Shown piece after piece: positions 20,772-46,695 of a stretch of DNA of 61,916 nucleotides (position 1 is the stretch's first letter; each line of letters opens with the position of its first letter). A program made the translations under genes and the position numbers. Under the pieces are notes generated by a model. That model did no database searches, was not told the origin of the DNA, and saw only the letters and a list, made by a program, of their open reading frames with translations. The DNA comes from Nitrospirota bacterium. GTDB lineage: Bacteria > Nitrospirota > JACRHL01. The stretch lies in the NCBI GenBank assembly GCA_029858285.1, contig JAOUFN010000015.1:1-61916 (forward strand), given 5' to 3'.

Positions 20772-20848
20772 GCCCCCGTAGCTCAGTTGGATAGAGCAAC
20801 GGTTTCCTAAACTGTAGGTCGGACGTTCAAATCGTCTCGGGGGCACCA
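20772..20848 (+). tRNA. tRNA-Arg (anticodon CCU)
   Basis: A 77-base cloverleaf with encoded CCA. Acceptor stem GCCCCCG/CGGGGGC, D arm GCTC...GAGC, anticodon stem ACGGT/ACTGT around loop TTCCTAA (anticodon CCT), T arm GGACG...CGTCT with TTCAAAT. It reads AGG codons. Its 3' half is repeated at 32462-32510, marking it as the insertion site of an island. Confidence 0.95.
20800..20848 (+). repeat. Left attachment site (attL) within tRNA-Arg
   Basis: 49 bases from the anticodon stem to CCA, repeated directly at 32462-32510 with one difference (CTGTAGG here, CTGCAGG there). The intact tRNA at this end and the 3' fragment at the other are the usual result of integration into a tRNA 3' end. Confidence 0.85.
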
Positions 20849-20853
20849 ATAAA

Positions 20854-20894
20854 AACAATGGCTTGCGTCTAATGACGTAGGCCGTTGTTGCTTT
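20854..20894 (+). terminator. Hairpin after tRNA-Arg
   Basis: AACAATGGC pairs with GCCGTTGTT (one G-T pair) around a loop that itself folds (CGTC/GACG), followed by GCTTT. Probably ends the tRNA transcript; it lies just inside the island. Confidence 0.5.
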
Positions 20895-21010
20895 CATGGG
20901 AAGGTGGTGCAAAAGCATCCCCTTAGTAGTCGTTGTACGAACCAGGGGAAGGGTGGCGGGCCGGTAGCGTGCTTCCGCATCACCCCATCGAACCAGGTCA
21001 TCCTGGGGAG

Positions 21011-22084
21011 TTAGGTATTTTCCCCGGAAGTCCGGGTGACGATACCTTGCACGTTCATGGACCTGCGGTCCCCGCCCGTCGAGATATAACACGCTTCTCT
21101 GAACATCAATTGGCCTTCCCGTAGCTCGTAGACCCAGTCTCCTTTCTGATAGTAAGACTGAAATACGTGTGGATGACGAAACAATGCGGGATCGAGCGGA
21201 CGGGCCGCGTACGGGTTGTGATAGATACGAAGCCCATCCAACAGGCTTTCCACGTACCGAGATTTCGGCTCTTCGACCACGTGAGGCTGACCGCCTGCCG
21301 GGTTATAGCGAAGGGCGGTGAACAGGATATTCGGATTTGGATCAGACGAGAGAGCGCGAACCTTTCCCCACGTCGCACAACTGCTGAAGATAACGGCACT
21401 GATGTCGCTATAGGCCGGGGAGCAAAAAAGTCCCAACTCGACGGGGCTGCCGTTGTCCTTGGAGACGTGCTGCAACTGCTCACCCTCAAGGCGGCCTTCG
21501 CGTCCGCGCGTTGCGATGTGGCGCTCCTCATCCACGTAGTAACTATGCAGAACGGCTTCGATGGGGCGTTGGCACGCCACGAAGCTAAACGGCCGGTCGA
21601 AGTTGGTTACGGCAATGACATAGCTCTTCCCCTTCACATGGTCTAGATGTGCATACGACTGTACGTATTTCTTGTGCTTCTCCGAGAGGCTGTTTGAAAG
21701 ACGTAGGATCGACTCAAAGTTGAATGCGTTGAGGTCGCGGGGCGGCATATTGCCGCGTCTAACATGTTCCGGCTCCGCCCCTTGCGCGTTTGATGCGACG
21801 GTGGCCTCGACAACGAGTCCGCGGTCCGGAATACAGAAGTCCGGGCGGGCATGAGAGAAATCCACGGTCAGCCCGTATTCCTTGAGGACCGCAAAGAGAT
21901 AGAGTTCCCAGAACGCAGAATTGAAACTGGCCTGGAACTCCTCGACGAATTTCCCGTCGCGGTCTACGAACCCCCTGGCCCAATCGTTCAGCACATCGAG
22001 TGCGAACCCGTTGCCAGGTCGGACGATGTTCCTGAAGTTCGGGTGCTGCCTGGCCTCGTCTACCAGTGGGTCAAAGAGTCGCAT
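21011..22084 (-). CDS. Orphan protein with a PD-(D/E)XK nuclease-like motif
   Basis: 357 residues; no family recognised with confidence. Residues 50-100 hold FNSAFWELYLFAVLKEYG, then SHARPDFCIPDRGLVVEATV: a helix glutamate, a PD pair and a Glu-x-Thr/Ala strand in the order seen in restriction-like nucleases, though the usual lysine is not at its normal place. The rest is soluble and mixed in character. GC content and codon use are visibly lower than in neighbours, which fits recent acquisition. It stands alone inside the island beside the attachment site, with no methyltransferase partner. A defence or mobile-element role is possible but unproven. Confidence 0.6.
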   Translation of the reverse strand: MRLFDPLVDEARQHPNFRNIVRPGNGFALDVLNDWARGFVDRDGKFVEEFQASFNSAFWELYLFAVLKEYGLTVDFSHARPDFCIPDRGLVVEATVASNAQGAEPEHVRRGNMPPRDLNAFNFESILRLSNSLSEKHKKYVQSYAHLDHVKGKSYVIAVTNFDRPFSFVACQRPIEAVLHSYYVDEERHIATRGREGRLEGEQLQHVSKDNGSPVELGLFCSPAYSDISAVIFSSCATWGKVRALSSDPNPNILFTALRYNPAGGQPHVVEEPKSRYVESLLDGLRIYHNPYAARPLDPALFRHPHVFQSYYQKGDWVYELREGQLMFREACYISTGGDRRSMNVQGIVTRTSGENT

Positions 22085-22272
22085 CGCAAGTCTCTGGATA
22101 CAATACTTAACTCCCCTAGCGCTACCCTCGTCGGACTCAAACCGGCCACCACCCGTAACCTACCAGATTCATTTGGTTTTTTTCACAAACGCAAAACGGG
22201 TACCCACTCCCATTCGCGCAAGTGCCCGTTTTCCTTGAAGTGGCTCCCCTTTTTCTCCACAGTGGAGATCCC

Positions 22273-22782
22273 ATGGCCTGCATCGAAAAGCGCACCTCCA
22301 AATCCGGCCCCGTCAGCTTCCGCGTCAAAATCGGCATCCAGGGTTATCCCCCGCAAACGGCCACCTTCGCCCGCCTCACCGACGCCCGCCGGTGGGCGGC
22401 GGAAACCGAGGCGGCCATCCGCAATGGCCGCCATTTCTCCACCGGGTCCACAGCCCGGCACACACTCGGGGATCTGGTTGATCTCCTGCGTGAAATGGTG
22501 CGCCGGGTAGACAACCCGTACCTGTTCCCGGCCCCCGCCGGCCGGGGCAAAATCGGCCTGCGCACCGCGTGGGAAGTGGCCGTGCGCCGCGCCGGGGGAA
22601 CCACTGAGTCCCGCCCACCCTGGACAGAAATGGCGGCATACCCACATGTTCAACCTTCGGGGGGACCCGGACGGCATGTTACCAGCCCCACTCTTTGCGG
22701 TCATACCCCACGGTATTGTCGGAAGCAAGACGGCTGCCGCCCCCTCCCCCCTTTACACGGTCGCACCGGAGAATTGATGTAA
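22273..22782 (+). pseudogene. Degenerate tyrosine recombinase (phage-type integrase)
   Basis: The open frame from ATG 22273 (GTGGAG upstream) encodes about 169 residues. Residues 1-60 resemble the arm-type DNA-binding domain of phage integrases (FRVKIGIQGYPPQTATFARL, then DARRWAAETEAAIRNGRHF) and residues 62-72 the start of the core-binding domain (HTLGDLVDLL). The sequence then jumps to a piece typical of the catalytic domain (NPYLFPAPAG...RTAWEVAVRRAG). Most of the core-binding and catalytic domains is missing and the HxxR/Tyr box is not found, so an internal deletion plus 3' decay is likely. It is the remnant of the island's integrase. Confidence 0.75.
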
Positions 22783-22833
22783 CACACTGTAATTAAAGGT
22801 GAACACGGCTCATTTTGGAGGCGCCCCGGCGGA

Positions 22834-22849
22834 TGGCACGAGAGTTGTT
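22834..22849 (+). promoter_or_regulatory. Sigma-54-like promoter of the nitrate transporter gene
   Basis: TGGCAC, five bases, TTGTT: a perfect -24 element with GT instead of GC at -12. It lies 43 bases before ATG 22892, the right distance for a short leader. NtrC/RpoN control would fit nitrogen assimilation. Confidence 0.55.
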
Positions 22850-22891
22850 GAAGGGGAGGGCATATTCCCCTCTGCAACAGGAGTTGCCGTC

Positions 22892-24103
22892 ATGCAGAAA
22901 GAGTTCTTCAGAAATGGGCACTGGCCCACGTTGCTCGCCGCGTTTCTTTACTTCGACATGAGCTTCATGGTGTGGGTGATGCTCGGCCCCCTGGGAGTGC
23001 ATATCTCTCGCGATCTGGGGCTGGATGCGGCCCAGAAGGGGATGATGGTTGCCATCCCGATCCTGGCGGGCGCCCTGCTGCGCTGGCCGATGGGCCTGAT
23101 GGTCGATCACCTGGGGCCACGGCGCACCGGACAGATCGGTCAGGTGGTGGTCATCGGCGCACTGGCCTGGGCATGGCTGGCGGGACTGCCCTCCCTGGGA
23201 GCGGTCCATGTGATGGGGGTGCTGCTCGGCGTGGCCGGGGCCAGCTTCGCCGTGGCCCTGCCCCTGGCGTCGCGCTGGTATCCGCCCCACTACCAGGGGA
23301 TTGCCCTGGGCATCGCCGGGGCGGGCAACTCGGGCACCGTGTTCGCCGCCCTGTTCGCCCCCAAACTCGCCGACATGGTGGGGTGGAACGGCGTGTTCGG
23401 CCTTGCTCTCATTCCCCTGACCGCCACCCTGCTGGCCTACTCCCTGCTGGCCAAAGACAGCCCCGACCAGCCTACCCCGCAGCCCCTCAGCCGTTACTTT
23501 ACGGTGCTGCGTGACGTGGACACCTGGTGGTTCATGTTCTTCTACATGGTCACCTTCGGCGGTTTTGTCGGGCTGGCAGGAAGCCTGGTGATGTTCTTCC
23601 ACGATCAGTACGGACTGGTTCCCTCGGTGGCCGGGTACTTCACCGCGGTGTGCGTGTTTGCCGGTTCCCTGTTCCGCCCGGTGGGTGGGTGGTTGGCGGA
23701 TCGCATCGGCGGTATCCGCTCGTTGCAGGGCATGTATCTGGTGATTACCACCAGCATGGTGAGCATCAGCTTTTTACCCACCTCCCGCTGGGTGGCGCTG
23801 GCGGTGTTCTTCGTGGGCATGATGGCGCTGGGCATGGGCAACGGCGCGGTGTTCCAACTGGTGCCGCAGCGTTTCCGCAAGGAAATCGGCGTCATGACCG
23901 GGCTGGTCGGCATGGCGGGCGGCTTTGGCGGCTTCGTGCTGGCCTCGTCCCTGGGCTTTGCCAAGCAGTACACCGGCAGCTTCCAGATCGGCTTCCTGAT
24001 CTTCGGCGGGCTGGCGGCGGTGGCGTTTGTGGGAATGGCTGCGGTGCGCACCCGGTGGCGCACCACGTGGGGCTCCCCCACGGTCACCACGGCGCGGGTG
24101 TAA
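22892..24103 (+). CDS. Nitrate/nitrite transporter, NarK/NasA-type MFS protein
   Basis: 403 residues from ATG 22892 with AGGAG upstream. Twelve hydrophobic helices. Nitrate-nitrite porter signatures are visible: ALPLASRWYPPHYQGIALGI and AGAGNSGTVFAALFAP in the first half, and ALGMGNGAVFQLVPQRF and GLVGMAGGFGGF in the second, with RWP-type arginines in helices 2 and 8 (LRWPMGL, RPVGGWLADR). It should import nitrate across the inner membrane for the reductases downstream. It leads the cassette and is followed after 3 bases by the kinase/phosphatase fusion. Confidence 0.9.
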   Translation: MQKEFFRNGHWPTLLAAFLYFDMSFMVWVMLGPLGVHISRDLGLDAAQKGMMVAIPILAGALLRWPMGLMVDHLGPRRTGQIGQVVVIGALAWAWLAGLPSLGAVHVMGVLLGVAGASFAVALPLASRWYPPHYQGIALGIAGAGNSGTVFAALFAPKLADMVGWNGVFGLALIPLTATLLAYSLLAKDSPDQPTPQPLSRYFTVLRDVDTWWFMFFYMVTFGGFVGLAGSLVMFFHDQYGLVPSVAGYFTAVCVFAGSLFRPVGGWLADRIGGIRSLQGMYLVITTSMVSISFLPTSRWVALAVFFVGMMALGMGNGAVFQLVPQRFRKEIGVMTGLVGMAGGFGGFVLASSLGFAKQYTGSFQIGFLIFGGLAAVAFVGMAAVRTRWRTTWGSPTVTTARV

Positions 24104-24106
24104 GCC

Positions 24107-25888
24107 GTGGCTGTTCCATTCACTGCGGTTACCCCGCTGCCAGGGACGGCGGGGGGGAGCCCTCCCCGGGAGGGGACCCGGCGCGCTGCGCTGTCGGTGG
24201 CCCTCGGTCAGGCCACCCTGACCGGTCGCAGGCAGCGCAACGAGGATTTCCACGGCTGCATCACCCCGGCGGGCGAAAAACTCGCCAGCCGGGGCATTTG
24301 CGCCGTGGTGGCGGACGGCATGGGCGGCGCACTGGGGGGCATGGAGGCCTCACAAACCGCCGTCAAATCCCTGCTCACCGACTACTACACCACCCCTGAC
24401 ACCTGGTCCGTGACCGAGGCATTGCGGCGCGTGCTGGTGGCGGCCAATGCCTGGATCCATGCCGAGGGGCTGCGCAACCCGCGCCTGACCGGCATGGCCA
24501 CCACACTGTCTGCCGTGGTGCTCAAGGGGCGGCACTATGTCACCGCCCATGTGGGCGACTCGCGCATCTATCACTTCCGTGACGGGCATCTGGAGCAGCT
24601 CAGTACCGACCATGTGCGGCCCATGCCCGGTACCCCCGCAGCCCTGACCCGGGCCCTGGGGCTGGACCGGGTGGTGCATATCGAAAGCGCCAGCGGTGAA
24701 CTGGCCGTCGGCGACCGTCTGCTGCTGGTCACCGACGGCGTCACCGGCGCGCTGCCGGACGACGTCCTGCGCCGTCTGCTGGCCGCCGAGCCCGACCCGC
24801 AGACCGCCTGCGACCGCATCGTGCAGGCTGCATTTGCCGCCCCCGGCCACGACAACATCACCGCCCAGATCGTGGAGGTCATTGGCCTTCCCGATCCCGG
24901 ACTGCAGGATGTGGCCGAGGGGGTGGGCATCCTGCCGTGGCCCACCAAACGTCTGGCCGTGGGTGAGGCGATTGACGGCTTCCACATCGAAGAGTTGCTG
25001 CATCAGGGGCGCGAGAGCCGTGTCTACCGCGCGCTTGATCGGGAAACCGGGCAGGAGGTGGCCCTCAAGTTCCCGGTCGGGGACGCGGACGACCCGGCGC
25101 TGCGGGAGCGTTTTGTGCGCGAGGAGTGGATTGGCCTGCGCCTGCGTTCGCCCCATCTGACCCGCACCCTGCGCCAACTGCCGGGGCGCCGCCATGCGTT
25201 GTACCTGGTCATGCCCCACGTGCCGGGGGTCACTTTGGCGCGGCTGCGGGAACGGGATGGCAATCTCTCCCCGCAGCGGGTGGCGGCGCTGGGCATCCAG
25301 CTCGCCCGCGCCTGCGCCGAACTGCACCGCCTGGGCATCACGCACCGCGACATCAAGCCCGACAACGTCTGCCTGACCCCGGATGGCACGGCGCTCCTCC
25401 TGGACCTGGGGGCCGCCCGTGTGGCGGGGCTGGATGACATGGACCCGCGCGAGGACGGCCCGCCGGGCACGCCAAGCTACATGGCGCCCGAACTGCTGCG
25501 CGGGGCGCCCGAACATGCCTTGGGTGACGAACGCAGCGACATCTACGCCCTGGGGGTGACGCTCTACCACCTCCTCACCGGGCATTATCCCTACGGAGAG
25601 GTAGAGCCGTTTTCTCGCCCCCTGTTCGGCGCCCCGGTGCCGGTTCGCCGCCACAACCCGGACGTGCCGCCGTGGCTGGAGGAAATCATCGCCCGCGCCA
25701 CTGGCATCACCCCCAGGCATCGCTATCCGAAGGCCACCGCGCTGCTGTACGACCTGGAGCATCCGGAATCGGTGATCGTGGAAAACCGCCCGCTGCTGGA
25801 GCGGGATCCGGTGGCGTTCTGGCGCGGGGGGTTCTGGCTCACGGCCGGTATCGCGCTGGTGCTGCTGGTTCTGCTGGCCCACAAATAA
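24107..25888 (+). CDS. PP2C-type protein phosphatase fused to a Ser/Thr protein kinase, C-terminal membrane anchor
   Basis: 593 residues from GTG 24107, three bases after the transporter stop. Residues 30-265 are a PP2C phosphatase with metal ligands in RNEDF, VADGMGG, GDSRIY and GHDNIT. Residues 290-565 are a Hanks-type kinase: VALKFP (ATP lysine), HRDIKPDN (catalytic loop), LLDLGAAR (DLG in place of DFG), GTPSYMAPE. A single hydrophobic helix ends the protein (WLTAGIALVLLVLLAHK). Phosphatase-kinase fusions next to nitrate transporters occur in some Pseudomonas nas loci, as I recall; presumably it modifies the transporter or reductase according to nitrogen supply. Confidence 0.92.
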   Translation: MAVPFTAVTPLPGTAGGSPPREGTRRAALSVALGQATLTGRRQRNEDFHGCITPAGEKLASRGICAVVADGMGGALGGMEASQTAVKSLLTDYYTTPDTWSVTEALRRVLVAANAWIHAEGLRNPRLTGMATTLSAVVLKGRHYVTAHVGDSRIYHFRDGHLEQLSTDHVRPMPGTPAALTRALGLDRVVHIESASGELAVGDRLLLVTDGVTGALPDDVLRRLLAAEPDPQTACDRIVQAAFAAPGHDNITAQIVEVIGLPDPGLQDVAEGVGILPWPTKRLAVGEAIDGFHIEELLHQGRESRVYRALDRETGQEVALKFPVGDADDPALRERFVREEWIGLRLRSPHLTRTLRQLPGRRHALYLVMPHVPGVTLARLRERDGNLSPQRVAALGIQLARACAELHRLGITHRDIKPDNVCLTPDGTALLLDLGAARVAGLDDMDPREDGPPGTPSYMAPELLRGAPEHALGDERSDIYALGVTLYHLLTGHYPYGEVEPFSRPLFGAPVPVRRHNPDVPPWLEEIIARATGITPRHRYPKATALLYDLEHPESVIVENRPLLERDPVAFWRGGFWLTAGIALVLLVLLAHK

Positions 25889-26149
25889 CATCCGTCCGGC
25901 CACACCCGTAAGCGCAAAAAAAGCGGCAAAATCCGGACTGCCCGCACACCCGGCCACGTTGCCCGACAAAGCTGTCGCAAACCCTCCCCTCGTGGCGGAA
26001 ACGCCCCCGGAAACGTGCCCCTCCCACACTCCGGAATGAACCGATAATATCATGTAAAAACAATATTATACGACATATTCCAACGTCGGGCACGGGGCTT
26101 GCTCAAGGGGAAGGCAGACAGCCACTCGCACGGAGACACCCCGGAACCC
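25889..26149 (+). promoter_or_regulatory. Promoter region of the nitrate reductase operon
   Basis: 260 bases between the kinase gene and the reductase. It contains a strongly A/T-rich block at 26040-26080 with near-palindromic ATAATAT/ATATTAT elements, suited to IHF-type bending, directly before the sigma-54 site at 26088. Confidence 0.5.
26088..26103 (+). promoter_or_regulatory. Sigma-54 promoter of the nitrate reductase operon
   Basis: GGGCAC, five bases, TTGCT: one mismatch to the RpoN consensus with GG and GC kept. Transcription should begin near 26114, which excludes the TTG at 26099 as a translation start and supports ATG 26150. Confidence 0.75.
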
Positions 26150-28333
26150 ATGCTCGACGACATCACCATCTTCAAGGGCGACTACCAGGACCGGATCCCG
26201 CAACTGCGGCAAAACCCGGTGGACACCTGGGAATACACCACCTGCGGTTACTGCTCCACCGGCTGCGGCATCGAGGTGGGGGTGCGGGACGGACGCGCGG
26301 TGACGGTGCGCGGCAAGGCCGGACATCCGGTAAACGACGGCAAACTGTGCCTGAAGGGAATTTGGGAATTCGAGGCCATCAACGCCCCGAACCGGGCGCT
26401 GTTCCCCATGCTTCGCGACCACATCGGTAAACCCCTGGAGCGGGGGTCGTGGGACGCCGCCTTCGGCCATGTGGCCGCCGAGTTCTCCCGCCTCCAGAAA
26501 ACCTGGGGTCGGGACGCGCTGGCAGTGGTCTCCACCGGGCAGATCTACACCGAGGAGTTCTACACCCTGGGCAAGCTGGTGCGCGGGGGCCTGGGCACCA
26601 ACAACTACGACGGCAACACCACCCTGTGCATGGCCTCCGCCGTGAGCGGCTACAAGCGCTCCTTCGGCGCCGACGGCCCCCCCGGCTGTTACGGCGACTT
26701 TGACCACACCGACTGCCTGATCGCCTTCGGTTCCAACCTGGTGGAGTGTCACCCGGTCATCTACTGGCGGCTGAAGAACGCTCTGGAGCGGCGGCGTTTT
26801 CCGGTGATCGTGGTGGACCCGCGCGTCACCCAGTTTGCCCAACTGGCCGACATCCATCTGCCGATTTTGCCCGGCACCGACGTGGTGCTGCTGAACGCCA
26901 TGGCCCACGTAATTCTGGCCGAGGGGTTGGCTGACCGAGACTACATCGCCGCCCACACCAGCGGGTTTGACGCATGGGAGGAAATCGTCCGGGGATTTTC
27001 CCCCGAGACGGCGGCGCCGGTGTGCGGCATTCCCGCCGCCACCATCCGCCGTGTGGCACACATTTACGGCAAGGCGGCGTCCGCCATGTGCATCTGGACC
27101 ATGGGCATCAACCAGTCCACCCACGGTTCCGACGGCGTGGCAGGCATCAACAACCTGTCCCTGCTCACCGGCAACGTGGGCAGACCCGGTGGCAGCCCCC
27201 TGTCCATCACCGGGCAGTGCAACGCCATGGGCACCCGTGAATTTTCCTCCTGCTCCGGCCTGCCCGGTTACCGGGCTCTGGAGAATCCGGAGCACCGGCG
27301 CGAAATCGCCACCTTCTGGGGGGTGGAAGAGGCCCTGCTTCCCACCGCCAGGGGGCGCGCCATGACCGACATTTTCCCGGCCATTGAGGCAGGCGAAATC
27401 AAGGGGTTGTGGCTCATCGCCACCAACCCCATGACCTCCATGCCCGACACCGGGCGCGTCGCCGACATCCTGCGCAAGCTGGAGTTTCTGGTGGTGCAGG
27501 ACGTGTTCCACCCCCTCCCCTCCACCGAGTTCGCCCATGTGCTCCTGCCCGCCGCCATGTGGGCGGAAAAGGAGGGGACTTTTACCAACAGCGAACGGCG
27601 CGTGAACCGGGTGCGCCGGGTGGTGGCGCCGCCGGGGGAGGCGAAGAGCGATCAGGACATCTTTCTGGGCGTCGCCGACGCCCTGGGATTCACCCACCTG
27701 ACGGCGCGCACCCCTGCCCAGGTACTGGCGGAGATCGGCCAGGTCAGCGAGGGGCGCCCGTGCGACTATTCGGGCCTCACCTACGAACGCCTCGAAGCGG
27801 TGGGGGGCATCCAGTGGCCCGCCCCCCGGACAGCGGACGGGACAGCCGTAACCGGTACCCCGCGCCTGTACGCCGACGGCCAGTTTCACCACCCGGACGG
27901 GCGCGCCAAACTCATCCCCCTGCCATTCACCGACAACAACGAGCGGCCCGACGCCGAATATCCGTTCTGGCTCAACACCGGTCGGGTGGTGGAGCACTGG
28001 CACACCCGCACCAAGACCGGGCGCATCGGCAACCTCAACAAGTTCTCGCCCGTCCCCTATGCCGAAATCAACGGCCGGGATGCGGCGCGCATGGGTGTCG
28101 CCGCGCTGGACTTCGTGCGCGTCGAATCTCGCCGGGGCCGCCTCGACCTCATGGTGCAGCCCACCGAACGGGTGGCGCCGGGTGCCGTGTTCATCCCGTT
28201 CCACCACGCGCGCGGGGCGAACCTGCTCACCCTGGGGCTGCTCGACCCCCATTCGCGCCAGCCCGCCTTCAAACAGTGCGCCGTGCGCATCACCCCCATC
28301 CCGCGTCCGGCGGCCATCCGCCAGGAGGTCTGA
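26150..28333 (+). CDS. Assimilatory nitrate reductase, molybdopterin oxidoreductase (NarB/NasA type)
   Basis: 727 residues from ATG 26150, the usual size of NarB. It reduces nitrate to nitrite using bis-MGD molybdenum and one [4Fe-4S] cluster. The cluster ligands are CGYC...GC (from residue 32) and LCLKG (near 67). LCMASAVSGYKRSFGADG provides the Mo-ligand cysteine typical of Nap/Nas enzymes. The C-terminal MopB dinucleotide domain (FWLNTGRVVEHWHTRTKTG) is intact. There is no twin-arginine signal, so it is cytoplasmic, and no C-terminal BFD-like domain. The next gene offers iron-sulfur clusters and a membrane part, suggesting electrons from quinol instead of ferredoxin or NADH. Confidence 0.93.
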   Translation: MLDDITIFKGDYQDRIPQLRQNPVDTWEYTTCGYCSTGCGIEVGVRDGRAVTVRGKAGHPVNDGKLCLKGIWEFEAINAPNRALFPMLRDHIGKPLERGSWDAAFGHVAAEFSRLQKTWGRDALAVVSTGQIYTEEFYTLGKLVRGGLGTNNYDGNTTLCMASAVSGYKRSFGADGPPGCYGDFDHTDCLIAFGSNLVECHPVIYWRLKNALERRRFPVIVVDPRVTQFAQLADIHLPILPGTDVVLLNAMAHVILAEGLADRDYIAAHTSGFDAWEEIVRGFSPETAAPVCGIPAATIRRVAHIYGKAASAMCIWTMGINQSTHGSDGVAGINNLSLLTGNVGRPGGSPLSITGQCNAMGTREFSSCSGLPGYRALENPEHRREIATFWGVEEALLPTARGRAMTDIFPAIEAGEIKGLWLIATNPMTSMPDTGRVADILRKLEFLVVQDVFHPLPSTEFAHVLLPAAMWAEKEGTFTNSERRVNRVRRVVAPPGEAKSDQDIFLGVADALGFTHLTARTPAQVLAEIGQVSEGRPCDYSGLTYERLEAVGGIQWPAPRTADGTAVTGTPRLYADGQFHHPDGRAKLIPLPFTDNNERPDAEYPFWLNTGRVVEHWHTRTKTGRIGNLNKFSPVPYAEINGRDAARMGVAALDFVRVESRRGRLDLMVQPTERVAPGAVFIPFHHARGANLLTLGLLDPHSRQPAFKQCAVRITPIPRPAAIRQEV

Positions 28334-28339
28334 AAAGCC

Positions 28340-30088
28340 GTGTCCCTGACCCCGATCCCCCAGCGCCAAAACGCCTTTCACTTCACCGCCAGCAACTGCA
28401 TCGGCTGCCACTCCTGTGAAGCGGCCTGCAGCGAAAAGAACGGCCTCAAACCCCACATCGCCTGGCGCAAGGTGGGGTATGTGGAAAGCGGGGAATTCCC
28501 CCACTACCGGCGGGTCAATACCTCCATGGCGTGCAACCATTGCGACAACCCGGTGTGCCTGAAGGGGTGCCCGACCCGCGCTTATGTGAAATACGCCGAC
28601 ACCGGCGCCGTGGTGCAGGATTCCAGCGTCTGTTTCGGCTGCCAGTACTGCACCTGGGTGTGCCCCTACGGCGCACCGGTGTTCGACCCCGAGGTGGGTA
28701 CCGTCTCCAAATGCAACATGTGCGTGGACCGGCTGGCCGTGGGATTGAAACCCGCGTGCGTGGCCGCCTGCCTGGGGCACGCCCTGGAATTCGGCAAACG
28801 TGAGGAGCTTCCCGATCGTTTTAACGACGTGAGAGAAGTCATCCCCGGCTTCCCCGACCCTTCCATCACCCGCCCCAACGTGCGTTTCGCCTTTTCCGGT
28901 ACCACCGCCGACCACTACACCCGGCCGGACAGCATGAATCTGGCCTACCAGAACCAGTGCGACGCCCACCACCCCGTGGCCTTGCCCGCCCCCCGGCGGG
29001 AGGTGTTCTCGTGGCAGGCCCTGCAATCCTCCGAGACCCCCCTGGCAGTGTTCACTCTCATCGCCCAGGGCGTGGTGGGGGCGTTCTGCACCGGACTCGT
29101 CGCCGTGGTTGCCGGTAATTCGAGCGGAGACTTCCCGTTGCCCTCCCCGCTGCAAGGACTGCTGCTGGCCGGGCTGTCGTTGCTGCTGGCGTACGGTCTG
29201 TTCACCTCTACCATGCACCTGGGGCGGCCACGCTTTTTCTACCGTGCCATGAACAACCTGCGCTACTCGTGGGTCAGCCGCGAAATCCTGTTTATGGGCG
29301 GTTTCATGACCTTGTTGCTGGCTTGTGCCGCCGCGTGGTGGCTGGGGTTGCCATCGGCCACCCGTTTGGCCCTGGGTGGCGTCACGGCGGTAACGGGGGT
29401 GCTCGGCATCTTCTGCATGGGGATGATTTACCGCATCCCGGCCCGGCCATATTGGCACCACCCCCATACCTTCGTGGCCTTCGCCGCCAGCGGGCTGATC
29501 CTCGGCCCGCTGGGGGTGGGGGCGGTGGCGGGGGTTTACACCCTGGCGAATGGAAGTTTTTCCCCGGCGGTGGGCATCCTCCAGATCTCCTGCGCCATGA
29601 CCGCTTTGGTGACGGTGGGCCTCGAACGCCTTTCCGCCCGGCGTCACACGGCATGGCTGGCGACAACCGGGGGCGAGGCCGAGGCCGCACTGTGGCTGCT
29701 GGTCGGAACCCTTCACGCGGCCTACACCGCACGCGGATGGGCGAGCCTGGCATTGCTGCCGCTTTGCACCGGCATTGTCATCGCCCCATCCCCCGAACTC
29801 AAAACGGCGGGCGTACTCGCGGCCCTGGGGACGGCTCTGATGGCCGAAACCCTGGGACGACTGCTGTTTTACATGGCGGTGGTCCCCACCACCATGCCGG
29901 GGGCGTTTTTTCTCAAAAACCGGGGATTTGAAAAACTGGCACGGGAGACGGGCCTGGCCGCCGACCCTGCGGTGGGCGTCGCGCCCGACCCCCACGCGGC
30001 CCCCCACGCCACATCACCTGATCCGGAACACCCGGCCGTAGTGCCCGCCTGTACCCCTGCCCAACACCCGGAGGAGGCCATCGCGTGA
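28340..30088 (+). CDS. DmsB-DmsC fusion: four-cluster ferredoxin joined to a membrane anchor
   Basis: 582 residues from GTG 28340, with AGGAGGT upstream and only six bases after the reductase. Residues 1-200 are a DmsB-type protein with four cysteine groups for [4Fe-4S] clusters (CIGCHSCEAAC, CNHCDNPVCLKGCP, CFGCQYCTWVCP, CNMC...CVAAC). Residues 230-540 carry eight or so hydrophobic helices like DmsC/NrfD-type anchors (ETPLAVFTLIAQGVVGAFC, STMHLGRPRFFYRAMNNLR). In most organisms DmsB and DmsC are separate; here they are one chain. It probably passes electrons from the quinol pool to the cytoplasmic nitrate reductase. The last 60 residues are proline/histidine-rich and of unknown use. Confidence 0.88.
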   Translation: MSLTPIPQRQNAFHFTASNCIGCHSCEAACSEKNGLKPHIAWRKVGYVESGEFPHYRRVNTSMACNHCDNPVCLKGCPTRAYVKYADTGAVVQDSSVCFGCQYCTWVCPYGAPVFDPEVGTVSKCNMCVDRLAVGLKPACVAACLGHALEFGKREELPDRFNDVREVIPGFPDPSITRPNVRFAFSGTTADHYTRPDSMNLAYQNQCDAHHPVALPAPRREVFSWQALQSSETPLAVFTLIAQGVVGAFCTGLVAVVAGNSSGDFPLPSPLQGLLLAGLSLLLAYGLFTSTMHLGRPRFFYRAMNNLRYSWVSREILFMGGFMTLLLACAAAWWLGLPSATRLALGGVTAVTGVLGIFCMGMIYRIPARPYWHHPHTFVAFAASGLILGPLGVGAVAGVYTLANGSFSPAVGILQISCAMTALVTVGLERLSARRHTAWLATTGGEAEAALWLLVGTLHAAYTARGWASLALLPLCTGIVIAPSPELKTAGVLAALGTALMAETLGRLLFYMAVVPTTMPGAFFLKNRGFEKLARETGLAADPAVGVAPDPHAAPHATSPDPEHPAVVPACTPAQHPEEAIA

Positions 30089-31698
30089 TTTCCGTCCCTG
30101 CGCCACAACCCGCCGCCGGCGACAAGGTGCCCGCCGAGGAGCAGTTTAAAACCGCCCTGCACCCTTTGGATAGCGATGCGGAGATCGCCCGCCTGGCCCG
30201 GGAGGGGAGCGCCGATCTGCCCCGTGAGTGGGCCTTCCGCCTGCGCTGGTACGGTCTGTTCTGGGAGGGGCCCCGCTCCGACACCTTCATGGTGCGAATC
30301 AAGGTCACCGGCGGAAAACTTTCCGCCGGGCAGCTTGCGGGGGTGTGTGCCCTGACGGAGCGACTTGGCCTGCCGTTTCTGGATGTCACCACGCGCCAGG
30401 GTTTGCAACTGCGCGGCGTGGCCGCACGCGACCTGCCGGAATTGCTGGACGGCCTTGCAGCTCTGGGCCTGACCAGCATGCGCTCGGGGGCGGACAACAT
30501 CCGTAATCTGATGGTTTGCCCGGCGGCGGGGGTCGGCGTCGATGAACTGGCGGACGTGCTGCCACTGGCGAATTCCCTGCAACGGCGCCTGACCGCCGGG
30601 CGCGAATTCGCCGATCTGCCGCGCAAGTTCAACATCGCCCTGTGCGGCTGCGGCACCGCCTGCATCCACCCCGAACTGGCCGACATCGCAGTGCTGGCCG
30701 TGCAACATCCGGAAGGAGAAGAAATTGGCTATACCCTTTGGGTCGGTGGACAACCCTCCACCACCCGGGTCTTTGGCCACAACCTGTCCCTGTTCCTGGA
30801 CGCCGGACAGGTGCCCGAGGTGTGCGCGGCCATCCTGTCCGTATTCCGTGACCACGGCAACCGCTTCAACCGCAAGCAGGCACGCCTGTCTCACCTGATC
30901 GAGTCGTGGGGGCTGGAGCGCTTTGCCGCCACGGTGGAGGCCGTGCTCGGCTGGTCCCTGCCCCGGGTGGCAGGGATCGCGGCGCCCGGCCACGGCGAAT
31001 GTGACGGCATTGGCATGTACCTCCAGCGGCAGGCCGGGCGGTGCCGGGTTGGCGTAGCGCTGCCGGTTGGGCGGCTGAGTGTTGCCCAGGGGCGGGCGCT
31101 CGCGCGGTTGTCCCAGCTTCACGGCTCCGGCGAACTGCGCCTTACGCCGCGCCAGAACCTGCACATCCTCCATGTCTCCGCAGCCAATGCCGCTGCGCTG
31201 GAAAATGCTCTGGCCGGGTTCGGCCTGCGCACGGCGGCCAGCCCGGTGCGGGCGGCCATCACCGCCTGTTCCGGCAACAGCTACTGCAAGCTGGCCACGG
31301 TGGAAACCAAGCACCGCGCCCTGGACATCGTGGACTATTTGGAGCAGCAGGGGCTGGCAGATGAACCGCTGATCATGGCCCTGTCGGCCTGCCCCAACAC
31401 CTGCGCCCTGCACGCCAACGCCGACATCGGATTACAGGGGTGCAAGGTCAAAACCGATGCCGGGGTGGTGGAGGGGTTTCACCTGCTGGTGGGGGGCGGT
31501 ACCGGACCGGGCGCGGCCTTCGGACACCCACTGTTCCAGAAAGTCCCCGGAGAGCAGATCAACCCGCAACTGGCTCAGGTAATCCACATCTGGCGTTTGC
31601 AACGGCAACCGGGTGAAGGTTTTGGGGCCTTCTGTCGTCGCCACACCCCCGAACAACTAGGTGCCATCTTCACCCAGGGTGAGACGGCTCACGCCTGA
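30085..31698 (+). CDS. Ferredoxin-type nitrite reductase (NirA-like, siroheme and [4Fe-4S])
   Basis: 537 residues from GTG 30085, overlapping the previous stop. It contains two nitrite/sulfite reductase repeats: ferredoxin-like halves near residues 60-135 (FLDVTTRQGLQLRG) and 330-385 (LRLTPRQNLHI), and 4Fe-4S/siroheme halves. The second half provides the cluster ligands ACSGNSYC and ACPNTC. Family members reduce nitrite to ammonium with six electrons, or sulfite to sulfide; the nitrate context favours nitrite. No NADH-binding module is present, so the donor is probably a ferredoxin encoded elsewhere. It ends the operon, and a terminator follows at once. Confidence 0.9.
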   Translation: MISVPAPQPAAGDKVPAEEQFKTALHPLDSDAEIARLAREGSADLPREWAFRLRWYGLFWEGPRSDTFMVRIKVTGGKLSAGQLAGVCALTERLGLPFLDVTTRQGLQLRGVAARDLPELLDGLAALGLTSMRSGADNIRNLMVCPAAGVGVDELADVLPLANSLQRRLTAGREFADLPRKFNIALCGCGTACIHPELADIAVLAVQHPEGEEIGYTLWVGGQPSTTRVFGHNLSLFLDAGQVPEVCAAILSVFRDHGNRFNRKQARLSHLIESWGLERFAATVEAVLGWSLPRVAGIAAPGHGECDGIGMYLQRQAGRCRVGVALPVGRLSVAQGRALARLSQLHGSGELRLTPRQNLHILHVSAANAAALENALAGFGLRTAASPVRAAITACSGNSYCKLATVETKHRALDIVDYLEQQGLADEPLIMALSACPNTCALHANADIGLQGCKVKTDAGVVEGFHLLVGGGTGPGAAFGHPLFQKVPGEQINPQLAQVIHIWRLQRQPGEGFGAFCRRHTPEQLGAIFTQGETAHA

Positions 31699-31725
31699 GG
31701 GGAAGGGGTAATCCCCCCTCTTTTT
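31697..31725 (+). terminator. Terminator of the nitrate operon
   Basis: GAGGGG pairs with CCCCTC across a 12-base loop that allows further G-C pairs, followed by TTTTT. It overlaps the nitrite reductase stop codon. Confidence 0.75.
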
Positions 31726-31859
31726 AACGCAAGCAAGATGGCCACCGGAGCTGCGCACCCGCCCCTCAAGGTTGAATCTTCGGACCCAACACACCGGGAT
31801 CTCCCTTGGAAGCTTACGATCAGCACGGGAGCGGGATTCGGCGCGCGGGGGTACCGGAG

Positions 31860-32342
31860 GAAGGCCGGCGGCAAGCTGGCCTTCACCTACGACGGTGAGC
31901 AGATGCTGTCGGAAACCTGGATTGCCCCACCCACTGGCGGCGTGGCGGGCAGCGTGTCGGTGGCCTTCGAGGCCGACCCGCGTCGCGTGACGCAACGCGT
32001 CAACAACACCAGCGCGGTGCTGTTCGTCACTGACGACGACGGCCTGCTCACGACGGCGGGGGCCATGACGCTGACCCGCGACGCGACCTCCGGCAGGCTC
32101 ACCGCCACCACCCTGGGCGGCGTCACCACCTCCCATACCGACAACAATTTCGGCAGGCCGGTTGGCTGTCTTCCGTTGACCAAAGACGGCATTGTCGTCG
32201 AGGCCTACGACTGGGCCGCCAACGGCCGCCGGATCGCGGCGTGTTCCGCGTCAATGTTCCGGACTACATGATCAAGGGCGGCGCCACCTACCGCATTATC
32301 ACCGACCACCTGGGCAGCCCGCGTTTAGTGCTCGATACCACC
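31860..32342 (+). pseudogene. RHS/YD-repeat protein remnant
   Basis: A frame through 31738-32271 encodes RHS-like repeats (GGKLAFTYDGEQMLSETW, then a beta-rich stretch). Near 32230 the coding sense shifts to another frame that reads [20 protein letters not shown] and [10 protein letters not shown], the conserved segment that precedes the RHS core end. No start with a ribosome site, no N-terminal part and no toxin tip are present, so this is a frameshifted fragment of a larger polymorphic-toxin or RHS gene, left beside the right attachment site. Confidence 0.7.
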
Positions 32343-32461
32343 ACCAGAGTTGTGGGAAGGTGCCGGTAACAGATCACGCCCCGCCAGAACACACCAGAAC
32401 ACGTAACCCGCTGTTTTTGTGTTCCAGCGTGTTCCGGAGTGCTCCGAAAAGCCCATTTTGG

Positions 32462-32510
32462 CGGTTTCCTAAACTGCAGGTCGGACGTTCAAATCGTCTC
32501 GGGGGCACCA
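32462..32510 (+). repeat. Right attachment site (attR), 3' half of tRNA-Arg
   Basis: 49 bases matching the anticodon-to-CCA part of the tRNA at 20800-20848 with a single difference. It lacks the 5' half and so is not a functional tRNA. Confidence 0.88.
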
Positions 32511-32550
32511 TTTTTTTCCGGGGGTTGCGACTGGCGCCGGGAGATATCCC

Positions 32551-37532: not shown

Positions 37533-37820
37533 ACACCCTCCGCAAACTTGTTGTTCGCCCGCCCCGCTTCCAGCGCCCCACAGTCTGCCCACCATCGCCC
37601 CCCCACGGCAACATTCACCACGCACGCAGCATGCGCCAGATGCACAAGACCGGGATTCTGGCGGACACCTATGTTGCGCCCTGTCGATACGGGGGTGGCC
37701 CCGATTCGGAACCTCGATGCCAGCTCACCAGAACCACCCTCATCACCCTTCCAGCGGACCGCCCCCGTATCGCACCCCCCCCCCGACGCCGCACCCGGCC
37801 GCACACAGGAGGAACCGTTC
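37533..37820. other. Gap before the phage structural module
   Basis: 288 bases between divergent genes. I see no att-like repeat, integrase or regulator gene here, and no clear promoter. Confidence 0.5.
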
Positions 37821-38408
37821 ATGAAACCACTGGACAACATACTGTCCCCCCCGCCGGGGGAGATCGAAGCAGCCGCGGCGCCGGACCCCGCCGACATCGC
37901 CGTATCGGCTGGAGACCTGCCGGTCGACACCGTGCCGCCCGAACTGGCGGTGGACGATTACGTCGGCCAGTCCGAACCGCAGGCCACACCGCAAGATGTG
38001 CAGCAGGTCACGCCCCAAAACCCCCGGCAACCCCCCCGGCAGAACACCGAGTCCCCCCCCGCAGCCGTCCCCGACCTCACCCGCCGCCTGCTGGACGCCC
38101 GTCTGGATCAGGCCGAGGCCGTGGCCCGCTCGCGCTACCCGGACTTCGACGCCAAGGTACAGGTGTTCGCCCGCCTGGCCGCCGTGGACCCGGCCCTGCT
38201 GGCGCGCCTGCACACCCACACCGATCCGGCGGAATACGCCTACCGGCTCGGAGGCACGGCGCTGGAGGCTGGGCGCGGAGCGCTTCCGGCGACCACGCCA
38301 CTGCCCGAGTCCTTGTCCGGCACCCTCTCCGCCGCACGCGCCGACACCGCCCCGTGGCGCCCCAAAACCCTGTTCGAAATCCTAGGAGACACCCGCAACC
38401 ATGGCTGA
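37821..38408 (+). CDS. Probable phage scaffolding or capsid-assembly protein
   Basis: 195 residues from ATG 37821 with AGGAGG upstream. The first 80 residues are proline-, alanine- and acid-rich and look disordered. The rest is helical (LTRRLLDARLDQAEAVARS). Its end overlaps the start of the capsid gene by eight bases. No sequence family was recognised; the size, composition and position directly before the major capsid gene are those of scaffold proteins in podoviruses. Confidence 0.55.
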   Translation: MKPLDNILSPPPGEIEAAAAPDPADIAVSAGDLPVDTVPPELAVDDYVGQSEPQATPQDVQQVTPQNPRQPPRQNTESPPAAVPDLTRRLLDARLDQAEAVARSRYPDFDAKVQVFARLAAVDPALLARLHTHTDPAEYAYRLGGTALEAGRGALPATTPLPESLSGTLSAARADTAPWRPKTLFEILGDTRNHG

Positions 38409-39489
38409 AACCACCACACCCACCGGCCTTGCCGTCCAGCAATGGGACGAGCGATTTTTCGAGGAATACGTTCGCGCCTCGCGCTATGCCCGCTACATGG
38501 GCACCGACGAGAACGCCATCGTCCAGCTCAAGGAAAACCTCACCAAGAAGCAGGGCGACCGCGTGACCTTCGCCCTGGTGCATGAACTGGCGGGCGCCGG
38601 GGTCACCGGCAACACCACACTGCAAGGCAACGAGGAGGCCCTCGACACCCGCTCCCACGCCATCACCGTGGACGTGGTGCGTCACGCCGTGGTGGTCACC
38701 ACCCTGGAGGAGCAGAAGAGCGCCATCGCCCTGCGCGACGCAGCCAGGGCCCGGCTGCGCTCCTGGGCCATGAAGAAGCTGCGCGACAGCATCACCACCG
38801 CCCTTGGCTCCATCGACGGCGTCGCCTACGCCTCCGCCACCGCCGGCCAGAAAAACGCCTGGCACACCAACAACACCGACCGTGTGCTGTACGGCTCGGC
38901 GGTGGCCAACTTCGTGGCCGCCAACCACGCGTCGTCACTGGCCAACGTGGATTCGGTAAACGACACCCTCAAGCCGGGGGTCATCTCCCTGGCCAAGCGC
39001 CTGGCCCAGGCAGCCACCCCGAAAATCCGCCCCATCACCGTGGACGGCGACGAAGAATGGTTTGTGCTGTTCTGCCACCCCCGCGCGTTCCGCGACCTGA
39101 AAAATGACACCACCATGATGCAGGCCAATCGCGACGCCCTGGCGCGCGGCGCCGACAACCCCCTGTTCACCGGCGGCGACCTCATCTGGGACGGCGTGAT
39201 CATTAAAGAGGTGCACGAGATTCCGGTTATCGCCGGGGCGGGCGCCGGAACCCCCGCCATCGATGTGGCCCCCGGCTACCTGTGCGGCGCGCAGGCGGTG
39301 GGTCTGGCCTGGGCGCAACGCACCAGAACCGCCACCCAGGAAACCGACTACGAATTCCGCCACGGCGTCGCCGTGCAGGAGATCCGTGGTCTGGAAAAAC
39401 TGCGCTTTGGCACCGGCGCGGGCGATACCACCACCCCCAAGGACAACGGCGTGTTCACCCTGTTCACCGCCGGGGTCGCCGACGCCTGA
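38401..39489 (+). CDS. Phage major capsid protein, N4-gp56 family
   Basis: 362 residues. The N-terminus (FEEYVRASRYARYMGTDEN, then ENLTKKQGDRVTFALVHEL) and the following stretch (NEEALDTRSHAITVDVVRHA) match the N4-gp56 family of HK97-fold capsid proteins. Further segments (LFCHPRAFRDLKND, ARGADNPLFTGGDLIWDGV) also fit. It would form the icosahedral shell. The gene is intact and follows the scaffold-like gene with overlap. Confidence 0.88.
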   Translation: MAETTTPTGLAVQQWDERFFEEYVRASRYARYMGTDENAIVQLKENLTKKQGDRVTFALVHELAGAGVTGNTTLQGNEEALDTRSHAITVDVVRHAVVVTTLEEQKSAIALRDAARARLRSWAMKKLRDSITTALGSIDGVAYASATAGQKNAWHTNNTDRVLYGSAVANFVAANHASSLANVDSVNDTLKPGVISLAKRLAQAATPKIRPITVDGDEEWFVLFCHPRAFRDLKNDTTMMQANRDALARGADNPLFTGGDLIWDGVIIKEVHEIPVIAGAGAGTPAIDVAPGYLCGAQAVGLAWAQRTRTATQETDYEFRHGVAVQEIRGLEKLRFGTGAGDTTTPKDNGVFTLFTAGVADA

Positions 39490-39551
39490 TCAGGTAATTC
39501 CGGGGCCGCGTGAACCGGCCCCACGACTTCTTTCCACCACCAAGGTGACCC

Positions 39552-39923
39552 ATGCCCCGATTCATTTTTACCGGCGGACACGACACCCACACCCTGGGCC
39601 ATGACTTTCCCGCCAACCTCCCCGTGCCAATCCCCACCACGGACGCCGGTGTGATCGCCAAGCTGCGCGGCAACCGCTTTTTCACCGAGGTGACCCAAAC
39701 CGGGCTGATCGACTCTCTGGACGACACCCTGCTGCAAATGCTGGATCACAACGTCCAGACCGTCACCGAAGCCCTCCCCGCCGCCACTGCGGAGGAACTA
39801 GACCGGCTGGAGGCCGGGGAGCGCGGCGGCAAGACCAGAAAGGGGGTGATGGAGGCGATCCGCATCGAGCGCTCCCGCCGCAGACAATCCCCCGCCGCCG
39901 CCCCGGCCGGAGGTAACCCGTGA
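39552..39923 (+). CDS. Hypothetical phage protein after the capsid gene
   Basis: 123 residues from ATG 39552 (AAGGTG upstream). The N-terminal half is beta-like (FIFTGGHDTHTLGHDFPANL), the C-terminal half helical and charged, with arginine-rich residues near the end. No family recognised. It ends overlapping the gp4-like gene by four bases, so it is part of the head operon, perhaps a head-completion or decoration protein. Confidence 0.6.
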   Translation: MPRFIFTGGHDTHTLGHDFPANLPVPIPTTDAGVIAKLRGNRFFTEVTQTGLIDSLDDTLLQMLDHNVQTVTEALPAATAEELDRLEAGERGGKTRKGVMEAIRIERSRRRQSPAAAPAGGNP

Positions 39924-40579
39924 CCACCACCTGGAGCCTCACCCGCGAGCAGGTGCGGGACGCGGTGCTGCGCAAACTGGGGGTTCTGGGGGCAGGGGAA
40001 TCCGCCACCCCGGAGGACGCCGCCATCATTCACGAAGCCCTCGACGGCACCCTGAAGAGCCTGCACCACCTGGGGCTGCTGTGGTGGCGCATCAGCGCGG
40101 CCAGCACCAGCGTCGCGCTCACCGCCGGGCAGGACTGGGCCCCCCTGCCCGCCGACCTGCTCCTGCCCCTGACCCTGGCGGTGGTGGACGGCGGCGCGGA
40201 AGCACCCGTCACCCTGATCGGCCACGCCGCTTACCGGGCCATTCCCGACAAGGCCACCCGCGGCGTGCCGCAACAGGCCATGTTCGACATGACTGCGGCC
40301 CGGGTCTGGCTGTATCCGCTGCCCGCCGCCGATGGCGCGGCGCATCTGACCTACCAGCGCATGGCCACAGACTCCGCCGACGGGCAGGCGCCCGACGTGC
40401 CCTCGTGGGCGCTGTTGCCCCTGCGTGACCTGGTGGCGTACCGCGTGGCGGACGACTTCGGCCTGCCGGAGGACAAGACCGGCCGCTTTGCCCTGGAGGC
40501 CCGCGAGGCCGAACGCCTGATTCGCATCCTGAACATCCCCCGTACCGGCCAACTGCCGGTGTTTTTCAGCGATTTTTGA
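39920..40579 (+). CDS. Phage head-tail adaptor, P22 gp4-like
   Basis: 219 residues from GTG 39920. The N-terminal helices (LTREQVRDAVLRKLGVL, ATPEDAAIIHEALDGTLKSL) and the following beta region with the terminal helix (LVAYRVADDFGLPEDKTGRF) resemble the gp4 tail-accessory family of P22-like phages, which sits under the portal and joins the tail. P22 gp4 is somewhat shorter, about 166 residues. No portal gene is present in the module, which makes its partner unclear. Confidence 0.6.
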   Translation: MTTTWSLTREQVRDAVLRKLGVLGAGESATPEDAAIIHEALDGTLKSLHHLGLLWWRISAASTSVALTAGQDWAPLPADLLLPLTLAVVDGGAEAPVTLIGHAAYRAIPDKATRGVPQQAMFDMTAARVWLYPLPAADGAAHLTYQRMATDSADGQAPDVPSWALLPLRDLVAYRVADDFGLPEDKTGRFALEAREAERLIRILNIPRTGQLPVFFSDF

Positions 40580-40592
40580 GGAAAAAACCCCC

Positions 40593-40901
40593 ATGTCCCT
40601 GATTGCCAACCCCCCTCCACAGCCGTTGCTGAACGCGGTTACCGCCGCCAGCGGCGCCTCCGATGTGAAAGGCATCCCCGCCACCGGACTGGGCATCGAT
40701 CTGGTCATTTCTGCGGTGGCCAGTGTCACCGTGCAGGTGTCGAACCATCCCGAAGCCCAGCGTTCCCCGGGCACTCCGACCTGGCAGAGTCTGGGTGTGT
40801 TCACCACCTCCGGCACGCTCACCGTGCCCGGCCAGTTCAACTGGCTGCGCCTGTCCTACGCCATCACCAGCGGCAACGTGACGGCAAGGGTCAACCAGTA
40901 A
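40593..40901 (+). CDS. Small beta-rich phage protein
   Basis: 102 residues from ATG 40593 with GAGGAAAA upstream. Alternating hydrophobic strands (VTVQVSNHPEA, SLGVFTTSGTLTVPGQFNWL) suggest a beta-sandwich as found in small virion decoration or neck proteins. Its stop (TAATG) overlaps the start of the next gene. No family recognised. Confidence 0.6.
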   Translation: MSLIANPPPQPLLNAVTAASGASDVKGIPATGLGIDLVISAVASVTVQVSNHPEAQRSPGTPTWQSLGVFTTSGTLTVPGQFNWLRLSYAITSGNVTARVNQ

Positions 40902-42094
40902 TGGCCCTGACCCACGTACTACGAGCCGCCGCCGAAACGGACCGGGCCCGACCAGCAACCGCCCTGCGCCCGGCCGTCAACGGCGCGGTGGCGCACTACG
41001 ACTTCGCCACCGGCACGCAGTGGGGGCCTGCCTTGGCGATGACGCGGGCGTCCACGGCTCTGGGGCAGAAAGCGGACGGGAAGTGGTACCCGTTCTCCGT
41101 CAACGTGCTGCGCACCCGCACCGACCGGGGGGCGCTGTTCGAGCTGGCCACCACCAATCTCAACACCAATTACAACGCCCCGACTCTCAGCAGCTCAACC
41201 GCTGCGTACACCACCACCGGCACGGCCCTCGTAGATAATCAGTCGAATCCCGGCGGGGTGGCGACAGTCATGGACCCGGCGATTGGAACCCACGAGGTGC
41301 GATTGCGGGGCGGCGCCAGTGGCGGCACCGTTACGATCGCGGGCGCGGCTGGCGCGGGGGCGCACAGTTTCCAGATGTACGCCCGCCTCGGGGTCGCCCC
41401 GAACGCCACCGTGGACCTGGGTGGTAAGGGCGCCCAGACGATCTCCAATAGCAACTACACACGCATCAAGAGCGAAAACATCGCCGCAACGGCGGGCGAC
41501 AAGATCACTTTTACGCTGCCCATCGGCAGCGAAGTAGCTTTCGTCCTTAACAGCCTCGAGACCGGCGCGGTGTGTCACAGCCCGGTGGTGGTGGCGGGCG
41601 CGGCGGCTACGCGCCTTGGCGATCAGTTGATCCTCCCGAGCGACGGGGTGATGGATGGGCGGGACTTCTCGGTGGTCACCGAGATTTATACAGAAAACCT
41701 GAGCATGCCAAGTCCCGGCATTCTGCTGGTCGCGGGGGACCCCTCGAACTGGCGTGCCTGCCGCGTCTGGGGGGCGGCGAATCCGGGGAGAGTGGGACTT
41801 GGGGTAGGGTCTGTTCCTGGCACCGGTGTCAACCTGGTTGGGTCCACGCCGATCACCCTCAGCACCCCGACGCGCCTCGCCTACACCTTTCGTGACGGAG
41901 ATTTCCGGGTTTTCCGGTCGGGCGTCCAGGATGGTGTGGACGCGTGGGGGACGGTGAACGCCCTCCCCCCTGCGAGTGTCAGCATCGGCTGGAATGGTAT
42001 TGCGGGTGGCGCGCAGGCTGAAGGCTGGATCAAGTTCTTGACGATTTACCCGCTCGCCCTTGCGCCCGAGCAGGCGAAATGGTTGACAGCATGA
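40901..42094 (+). CDS. Probable phage tail appendage with lectin-like (LamG) fold
   Basis: 397 residues. After a short N-terminus (AVAHYDFATGT and a LFELATTNL segment common in phage tail proteins) the sequence is Gly/Thr/Ser-rich and beta-like, ending with LAYTFRDGDFRVFRSG and IKFLTIYPLALAPEQA, typical of concanavalin/LamG-like domains. Codon use in the middle part is less GC-rich than in the neighbours, suggesting exchange of receptor-binding parts. It likely binds host surface sugars. Confidence 0.6.
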   Translation: MALTHVLRAAAETDRARPATALRPAVNGAVAHYDFATGTQWGPALAMTRASTALGQKADGKWYPFSVNVLRTRTDRGALFELATTNLNTNYNAPTLSSSTAAYTTTGTALVDNQSNPGGVATVMDPAIGTHEVRLRGGASGGTVTIAGAAGAGAHSFQMYARLGVAPNATVDLGGKGAQTISNSNYTRIKSENIAATAGDKITFTLPIGSEVAFVLNSLETGAVCHSPVVVAGAAATRLGDQLILPSDGVMDGRDFSVVTEIYTENLSMPSPGILLVAGDPSNWRACRVWGAANPGRVGLGVGSVPGTGVNLVGSTPITLSTPTRLAYTFRDGDFRVFRSGVQDGVDAWGTVNALPPASVSIGWNGIAGGAQAEGWIKFLTIYPLALAPEQAKWLTA

Positions 42095-42393
42095 AGCAGC
42101 TAACCTGCATCCACCCCGCTACCGGCCCCCAATCCGACCTGCCGTGGCCGACTGACGGCCTGATCCATCCTCCGGTCACGGCAGGAGAGGTCAACGCCGG
42201 ACAGCAGATCGTTCTGCTGATCGTGCGGGACGGGTTCGACCAGGGGTTATTACCGCCCGGCTGGACGGTGGTGGAACGGCTGCGTGGCGACGGCATGTAC
42301 GACGGTTTTCGCGTGGACGAAGCCGTTGTGGCCCGCTTCGCGCCAACAGGCGCGGTGCGCCTGACCTGGATCCCGTCCCCCATGGGTTGGTAA
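42091..42393 (+). CDS. Small hypothetical protein in the tail module
   Basis: 100 residues from ATG 42091, overlapping the stop of the preceding gene (ATGA). It has a mixed alpha/beta appearance (QQIVLLIVRDGFDQGLLPPG, VAPTG-type end strands). No family recognised. The overlap suggests that it works with the preceding appendage protein, for example as a chaperone or attachment part. Confidence 0.55.
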   Translation: MKQLTCIHPATGPQSDLPWPTDGLIHPPVTAGEVNAGQQIVLLIVRDGFDQGLLPPGWTVVERLRGDGMYDGFRVDEAVVARFAPTGAVRLTWIPSPMGW

Positions 42394-42455
42394 GGATCTG
42401 GCGGGGAAAACACAAAAATTAACCCGGAGCCCCTCGAGGAGATCAACGAAAAACC

Positions 42456-43922: not shown

Positions 43923-43939
43923 CCCCGGAAGGTTCCCCC

Positions 43940-45394: not shown

Positions 45395-45419
45395 TCGACC
45401 CCGGAAAAAAGCACATTCC

Positions 45420-45821: not shown

Positions 45822-45824
45822 CCC

Positions 45825-46499: not shown

Positions 46500-46695
46500 C
46501 GCCGGGAAGTCACGGGAAGCCACGGGAAGTCACGGCGGGCATCATCGCGCAAAGCACGCGGCGGAACCAGGTTCATCGCGAATCCGGCCACGCCCGTCCC
46601 GCGGCCTTCCTGACATCCCGGAGGGATATTTGCGCAGCGGCCTGCGGATGGCCACATGCCGTCCGCCGCCGTTGATGCCCGCGGGGGCCCCCCCG

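Follow-up and report, generated by a model that had tools for sequence, protein, structure and literature searches.

Positions 20800-32510 of the contig studied here raise the question of whether a nitrate assimilation pathway lying between two copies of a tRNA end was newly acquired as a mobile cassette, or whether host genes came to be carried by an integrating element. The window, by which we mean the whole stretch of DNA analysed (61,916 nucleotides), is one complete contig (C4; JAOUFN010000015.1) of the 2.56-Mb, 57-contig genome of a Nitrospirota bacterium (GCA_029858285.1).

Island ends and integrase genes

The tRNA-Arg(CCU) gene is intact (20772-20848, forward strand; ARAGORN), and the genome has no other full-length match of CCU type. 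Its last 49 bases form the attL core (20800-20848, forward strand). A direct repeat of this tRNA 3' half, the attR core, is found at 32462-32510 on the same strand. The two copies are identical at 48 of 49 positions; with both strands scanned, the next-best ungapped match to the 49-mer elsewhere in the window is 26/49. The first-pass annotation had described a repeat with one mismatch around an 11.7-kb segment (20800-32510) and a tRNA left whole at one end, and both observations were confirmed. The att sites are direct repeats of the end of the target gene, and the target gene is restored. A T-run follows attR (32511-32519). It is probably the original 3' flank of the tRNA, since in G003, a related genome, the tRNA-Arg also lies directly 5' of a T-run.

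The att core occurs three times in the assembly; the third copy is on contig C37 (C37:3406-3454), which is 7872 bp in length. In one stretch, C37 contains the right arm of an integrating element, the att core, the left arm, and an intact gene for a 378-aa tyrosine integrase (PF00589). The arms of this junction are 86-97% identical to both ends of the island. The island's left arm (74 bp, 20849-20922) matches the sequence to the right of the core on C37 (97% over the first 101 bp including the core, and 88.8% over 134 bp with gaps). The right arm (108 bp, 32354-32461) matches C37:3298-3454 (86% over 157 bp including the att core; the arm by itself is 82% identical). Because the C37 junction matches both of its ends, the island can be described as a decayed att-bounded element with phage-type ends.

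The integrase remnant reported by the first-pass annotation is real (22246-22597, forward strand). An N-terminus is joined to a short C-proximal piece, and the two pieces match the C37 integrase gene by blastn at 92.5% and 94%. Across these two separate stretches identity is 92-94% for nucleotides and 84-85% for amino acids. The middle and the catalytic C-terminus are missing; a residue check found none of the catalytic R, H, R and Y. The remnant is an internally deleted and C-terminally truncated copy of a C37-type integrase gene, and the island has no functional integrase of its own, as is expected of a tRNA island or CIME.

C37 is a putative source of the integrase cognate to the island's att sites. 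The arrangement may be either an attP site or a junction where tandem copies meet. Insertion of C37 in tandem into the same tRNA was considered and set aside, as it is at odds with the two flanks present on C4; C37 may be an excised or multimeric form of a phage, which is a better fit. The best phage matches to the C37 integrase are about 31% identical. The same contig carries an open reading frame (L008:4-882) in which short repeats of GAV type form a long run.

A nitrate assimilation operon of the host family

From left to right, the island consists of attL, the left arm, a PD-T7-5-type gene, the integrase remnant, genes for NarK, a PP2C-kinase, NasA, DmsB-DmsC and NirA, an RHS-like scrap, the right arm and attR, followed by the T-run. 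The nitrate uptake and reduction set placed between the repeats by the first-pass annotation was recovered by domain matches, all on the forward strand. It begins with a NarK-family nitrate/nitrite MFS transporter (22799-24103; MFS_1), which scores 285.8 bits against TIGR00886, under the cutoff of 311.7. Next is a fusion of a PP2C phosphatase and a Ser/Thr kinase (24107-25888; Pkinase and PP2C_2). It is probably a regulator; in G002, a second related genome, a similar gene is adjacent to narK. A NasA-type assimilatory nitrate reductase (26099-28333) has molybdopterin domains and orthologues in the family; its long, full-length alignments with NasA/NasC models score below cutoff. It is followed by a DmsB-DmsC fusion, which combines an Fe-S subunit with a membrane anchor subunit (28340-30088; Fer4_11 and DmsC), and by a NirA-type nitrite reductase (30085-31698; NIR_SIR domains; PRK09567 at 426 bits, below the cutoff of 523).

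The remaining cargo is of other kinds. A gene for a 357-aa PD-T7-5-type anti-phage defence protein (21011-22084, reverse strand; PADLOC PD-T7-5, E=1.5e-109, residues 1-334) is inserted between the left arm and the integrase remnant; the first-pass annotation did not mention it. In the slot next to attL there is thus a defence gene, and the corresponding tRNA-Leu slot of G003 holds a PDC-M57 candidate defence gene (L268:8069-9664). The RHS fragment of the first-pass annotation is retained in part: the pseudogene scrap at 31738-32353 (forward strand) appears RHS-like when its sequence is read by eye, and it gave zero Pfam or NCBIfam matches. No second copy of it was found in this genome. The Pfam and NCBIfam matches of the island proteins include none of the relaxase or conjugation genes that an integrative mobilizable or conjugative element should have. 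Between the att sites there are also none of the structural or packaging genes of phages, or hallmark genes of satellites, that a prophage or satellite should have. The phage-type parts inside the island are the integrase remnant and the arms only.

A comparison of GC and codon usage inside and outside the island, which had been proposed as a check, did not bear out a foreign origin. The operon genes have GC3 values of 0.79-0.87 against 0.81-0.90 for host genes, and are near the host in GC and codon use. Only the defence gene is clearly atypical (GC 56%, GC3 0.68). A foreign composition for the island as a whole was therefore rejected.

NasA orthologues (78-81% amino acid identity) are found in all three other genomes of the family, G001, G002 and G003, making four genera in all. 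The NasA-DmsBC-NirA genes are contiguous, with their order kept, in G001 and G003. The NasA proteins of the family group in a single clade whose neighbours are families f6 and f14, and divergence of the operon genes between genera is about that of the faster host genes. In the unrooted core tree the window genome pairs with G003; in trees of NasA plus DmsBC with an outgroup this pairing is rejected (AU p=0.003). The root of the core tree is unresolved, however, and the core genes do not reject a rooted topology that agrees with the nitrate tree. With the core root free, the quartet hint of recent transfer lost its significance. As the rooted core tree allows the nitrate-tree topology, transfer within the family is no more than possible; the gene trees are compatible with descent within the family and show no significant conflict with core genes. 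Carriage of the operon by viruses or plasmids was rejected on database searches: no virus contig in IMG/VR carries a DmsBC gene, no plasmid match covered 80% of that gene, and NasA matches in the phage collection were below 60% identity, several of them in records resembling host DNA. The operon appears to be old in the family and not recently foreign.

Nitrate genes at different tRNAs

The location of the operon is not conserved. Its neighbours differ in every genome with a readable context, and its tRNA context differs by genus: tRNA-Arg in the window genome, between tRNA-Leu fragments in G003, and tRNA-Met in G001. The comparison of tRNA contexts covers these three genera, as the operon of G002 is on short contigs. 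At the window locus itself, synteny of the right flank is not kept in the family, and the EmrB gene of this flank is missing from the other members. No empty tRNA-Arg site was readable in G001, G002 or G003, where the tRNA-Arg(CCU) neighbourhoods are unrelated. In three genomes of other families that have the operon there is no tRNA nearby.

G003 presents the closest parallel. One of its contigs (C101; L252, L253) contains the assimilatory operon, a tRNA-Leu 3' fragment (11269-11320), a respiratory nar cluster, a second tRNA-Leu 3' fragment (22550-22605) and an integrase gene; this is a tandem att array. This integrase and that of C37 are 57% identical. G003 has its full tRNA-Leu(UAA) on another contig (C63), where it adjoins a candidate defence gene. 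Homologues of the nar cluster and of the integrase gene of the array are found at tRNA-Leu genes in the window genome. A respiratory nar cluster (L274:8497-19486) lies directly downstream of tRNA-Leu(GAG) on contig C20, and is homologous to the att-bounded segment of G003 (84.6% over 9.6 kb). A truncated integrase gene (L255:8475-8912) lies right after tRNA-Leu(UAA) on contig C9; this broken gene is of the G003 type and, with its flank, is 87% identical over 495 bp to the C101 copy. In G001, about 0.25 kb separates the end of the operon from the 3' end of tRNA-Met. The gene that precedes this tRNA is conserved in all four family genomes, and only in G001 is the operon found there. A second tRNA-Met fragment was looked for in G001 and none was found; the case is one-sided, and for this reason it is suggestive only.

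A further phage fragment lies outside the island, at 37800-46500 (forward strand). It encodes major capsid, adaptor, tail and ejection proteins (PHROG capsid, tail and ejection matches; SU10 adaptor). No sequence in common with C37 was detectable, and for this reason the fragment can be assigned only to the same general type as the C37 phage and not to that phage itself. Two of its genes have homologues near a C37-type integrase gene on L158, an IMG/VR contig.

Origin of the island and comparison with known systems

The island is probably a decayed att-bounded integrative module, in effect cis-mobilizable, which carries a host nitrate assimilation operon, is anchored at a tRNA, and changed its tRNA site between genera. 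This reading draws on the repeat, the arms, the dead and intact integrases, the family-wide orthologues, the different tRNAs in three genera and the G003 array. The island ends (att core, both arms and integrase N-terminus) would derive from an element of phage-integrase type that integrates into the 3' half of tRNA-Arg(CCU) and restores the tRNA. Most likely, elements were inserted at the 3' ends of tRNA genes by phage-type tyrosine integrases; what deletion and recombination then left would be att-bounded modules that lack an integrase and carry nitrate and defence genes. In principle, an integrase acting in trans could excise such modules and reinsert them, at related tRNAs as well. Because its own integrase is dead, the window module would need a related integrase, for example that of C37, to act on its att sites before it could move. 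We infer from the arrangement of the sequences that nitrate modules of cis-mobilizable type were relocated by tRNA-specific tyrosine integrases; the operon would have been moved by site-specific recombination and may still be mobilisable. A broader version is doubtful. In it, the assimilatory as well as the respiratory nitrate sets of the family would be modules without an integrase, carried from one tRNA gene to another by phage-type integrases in trans, and the C37 element would still mobilise the window module.

Other explanations were weighed against the relocated module. The first-pass annotation saw a pathway acquired whole and recently, from another lineage, on this element. Part of that view stands: an integrase-type element used the tRNA-Arg 3' end, and its att sites enclose the operon together with an integrase remnant. 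In favour of it, the nitrate trees also separate the window genome from its unrooted-core partner. The new foreign acquisition is not supported and is unlikely, given a single NasA clade present in four of four family genomes, GC and codon use near those of the host, and a core root that leaves room for the nitrate topology. An assembly artefact, in which a false join at the att repeats placed the operon between them, could be imagined from three att cores in a 57-contig assembly and from about 75 bp that attL and its flank have exactly in common with C37. It is very improbable: the island ends carry sequence variants of their own that set them apart from C37, the interior runs on without a break, and a comparable arrangement exists in G003, an independent assembly.

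The operon might also be a stable part of the host chromosome, with the att copies as unrelated remains of prophages inserted one after another on its two sides. Orthologues throughout the family and a composition close to that of the host agree with this, as does the separate structural fragment 5 kb beyond attR, a sign of repeated phage activity here. The divergence of the operon would equally fit a stable operon enclosed by chance by a prophage, and against the relocated module it must be counted that the link between island and C37 consists of short arms and an integrase remnant, with no whole phage genes. The failure to find an empty tRNA-Arg site in a close relative, the one-sided case of G001 and the absence of DmsBC from IMG/VR virus contigs count against it as well. 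Chance enclosure is nevertheless quite improbable. The left arm with the integrase remnant on one side and the right arm on the other are oriented as expected for the two ends of a single element. The neighbours differ in every readable genome, and in G003 a comparable arrangement of att sites occurs at another tRNA.

If the relocation of the operon is correct, core-like nitrogen metabolism in an uncultured, groundwater-type lineage is carried in mobile, tRNA-anchored modules whose position changes from genus to genus, although they stay within the family. A defined pair of att site and integrase is offered for work on trans-mobilisation. The island resembles a CIME integrated at a tRNA. CIMEs have been described as decayed ICEs or IMEs, and their tandem accretion is known (PMC5704250). 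Like them, the island is an att-bounded segment that has lost its integrase, and G003, with two cargo segments and an integrase gene in a tandem att array, resembles CIME accretion. Unlike them, its ends are of phage-integrase type, no conjugation gene is seen and mobilisation is putative.

Relocated nitrate modules would also extend what is known of two other systems. In Dehalococcoides, islands with vcrABC/rdhA are integrated by a serine recombinase at a single tmRNA site, ssrA (PMC3146451). These are likewise tandem islands at one RNA gene with metabolic cargo, some of them without an integration module; in the family studied here, tyrosine integrases and several tRNA genes are involved instead. 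Tycheposons (Hackl et al. 2023, as cited in PMC10872708) are described there as tRNA-associated tyrosine-recombinase elements, with nitrate assimilation cargo in Prochlorococcus. By that description alone, they are like the island in tRNA association, recombinase type and nitrate cargo; the island belongs to a different phylum, and its cargo has its own nitrate reductase arrangement with a DmsBC anchor.
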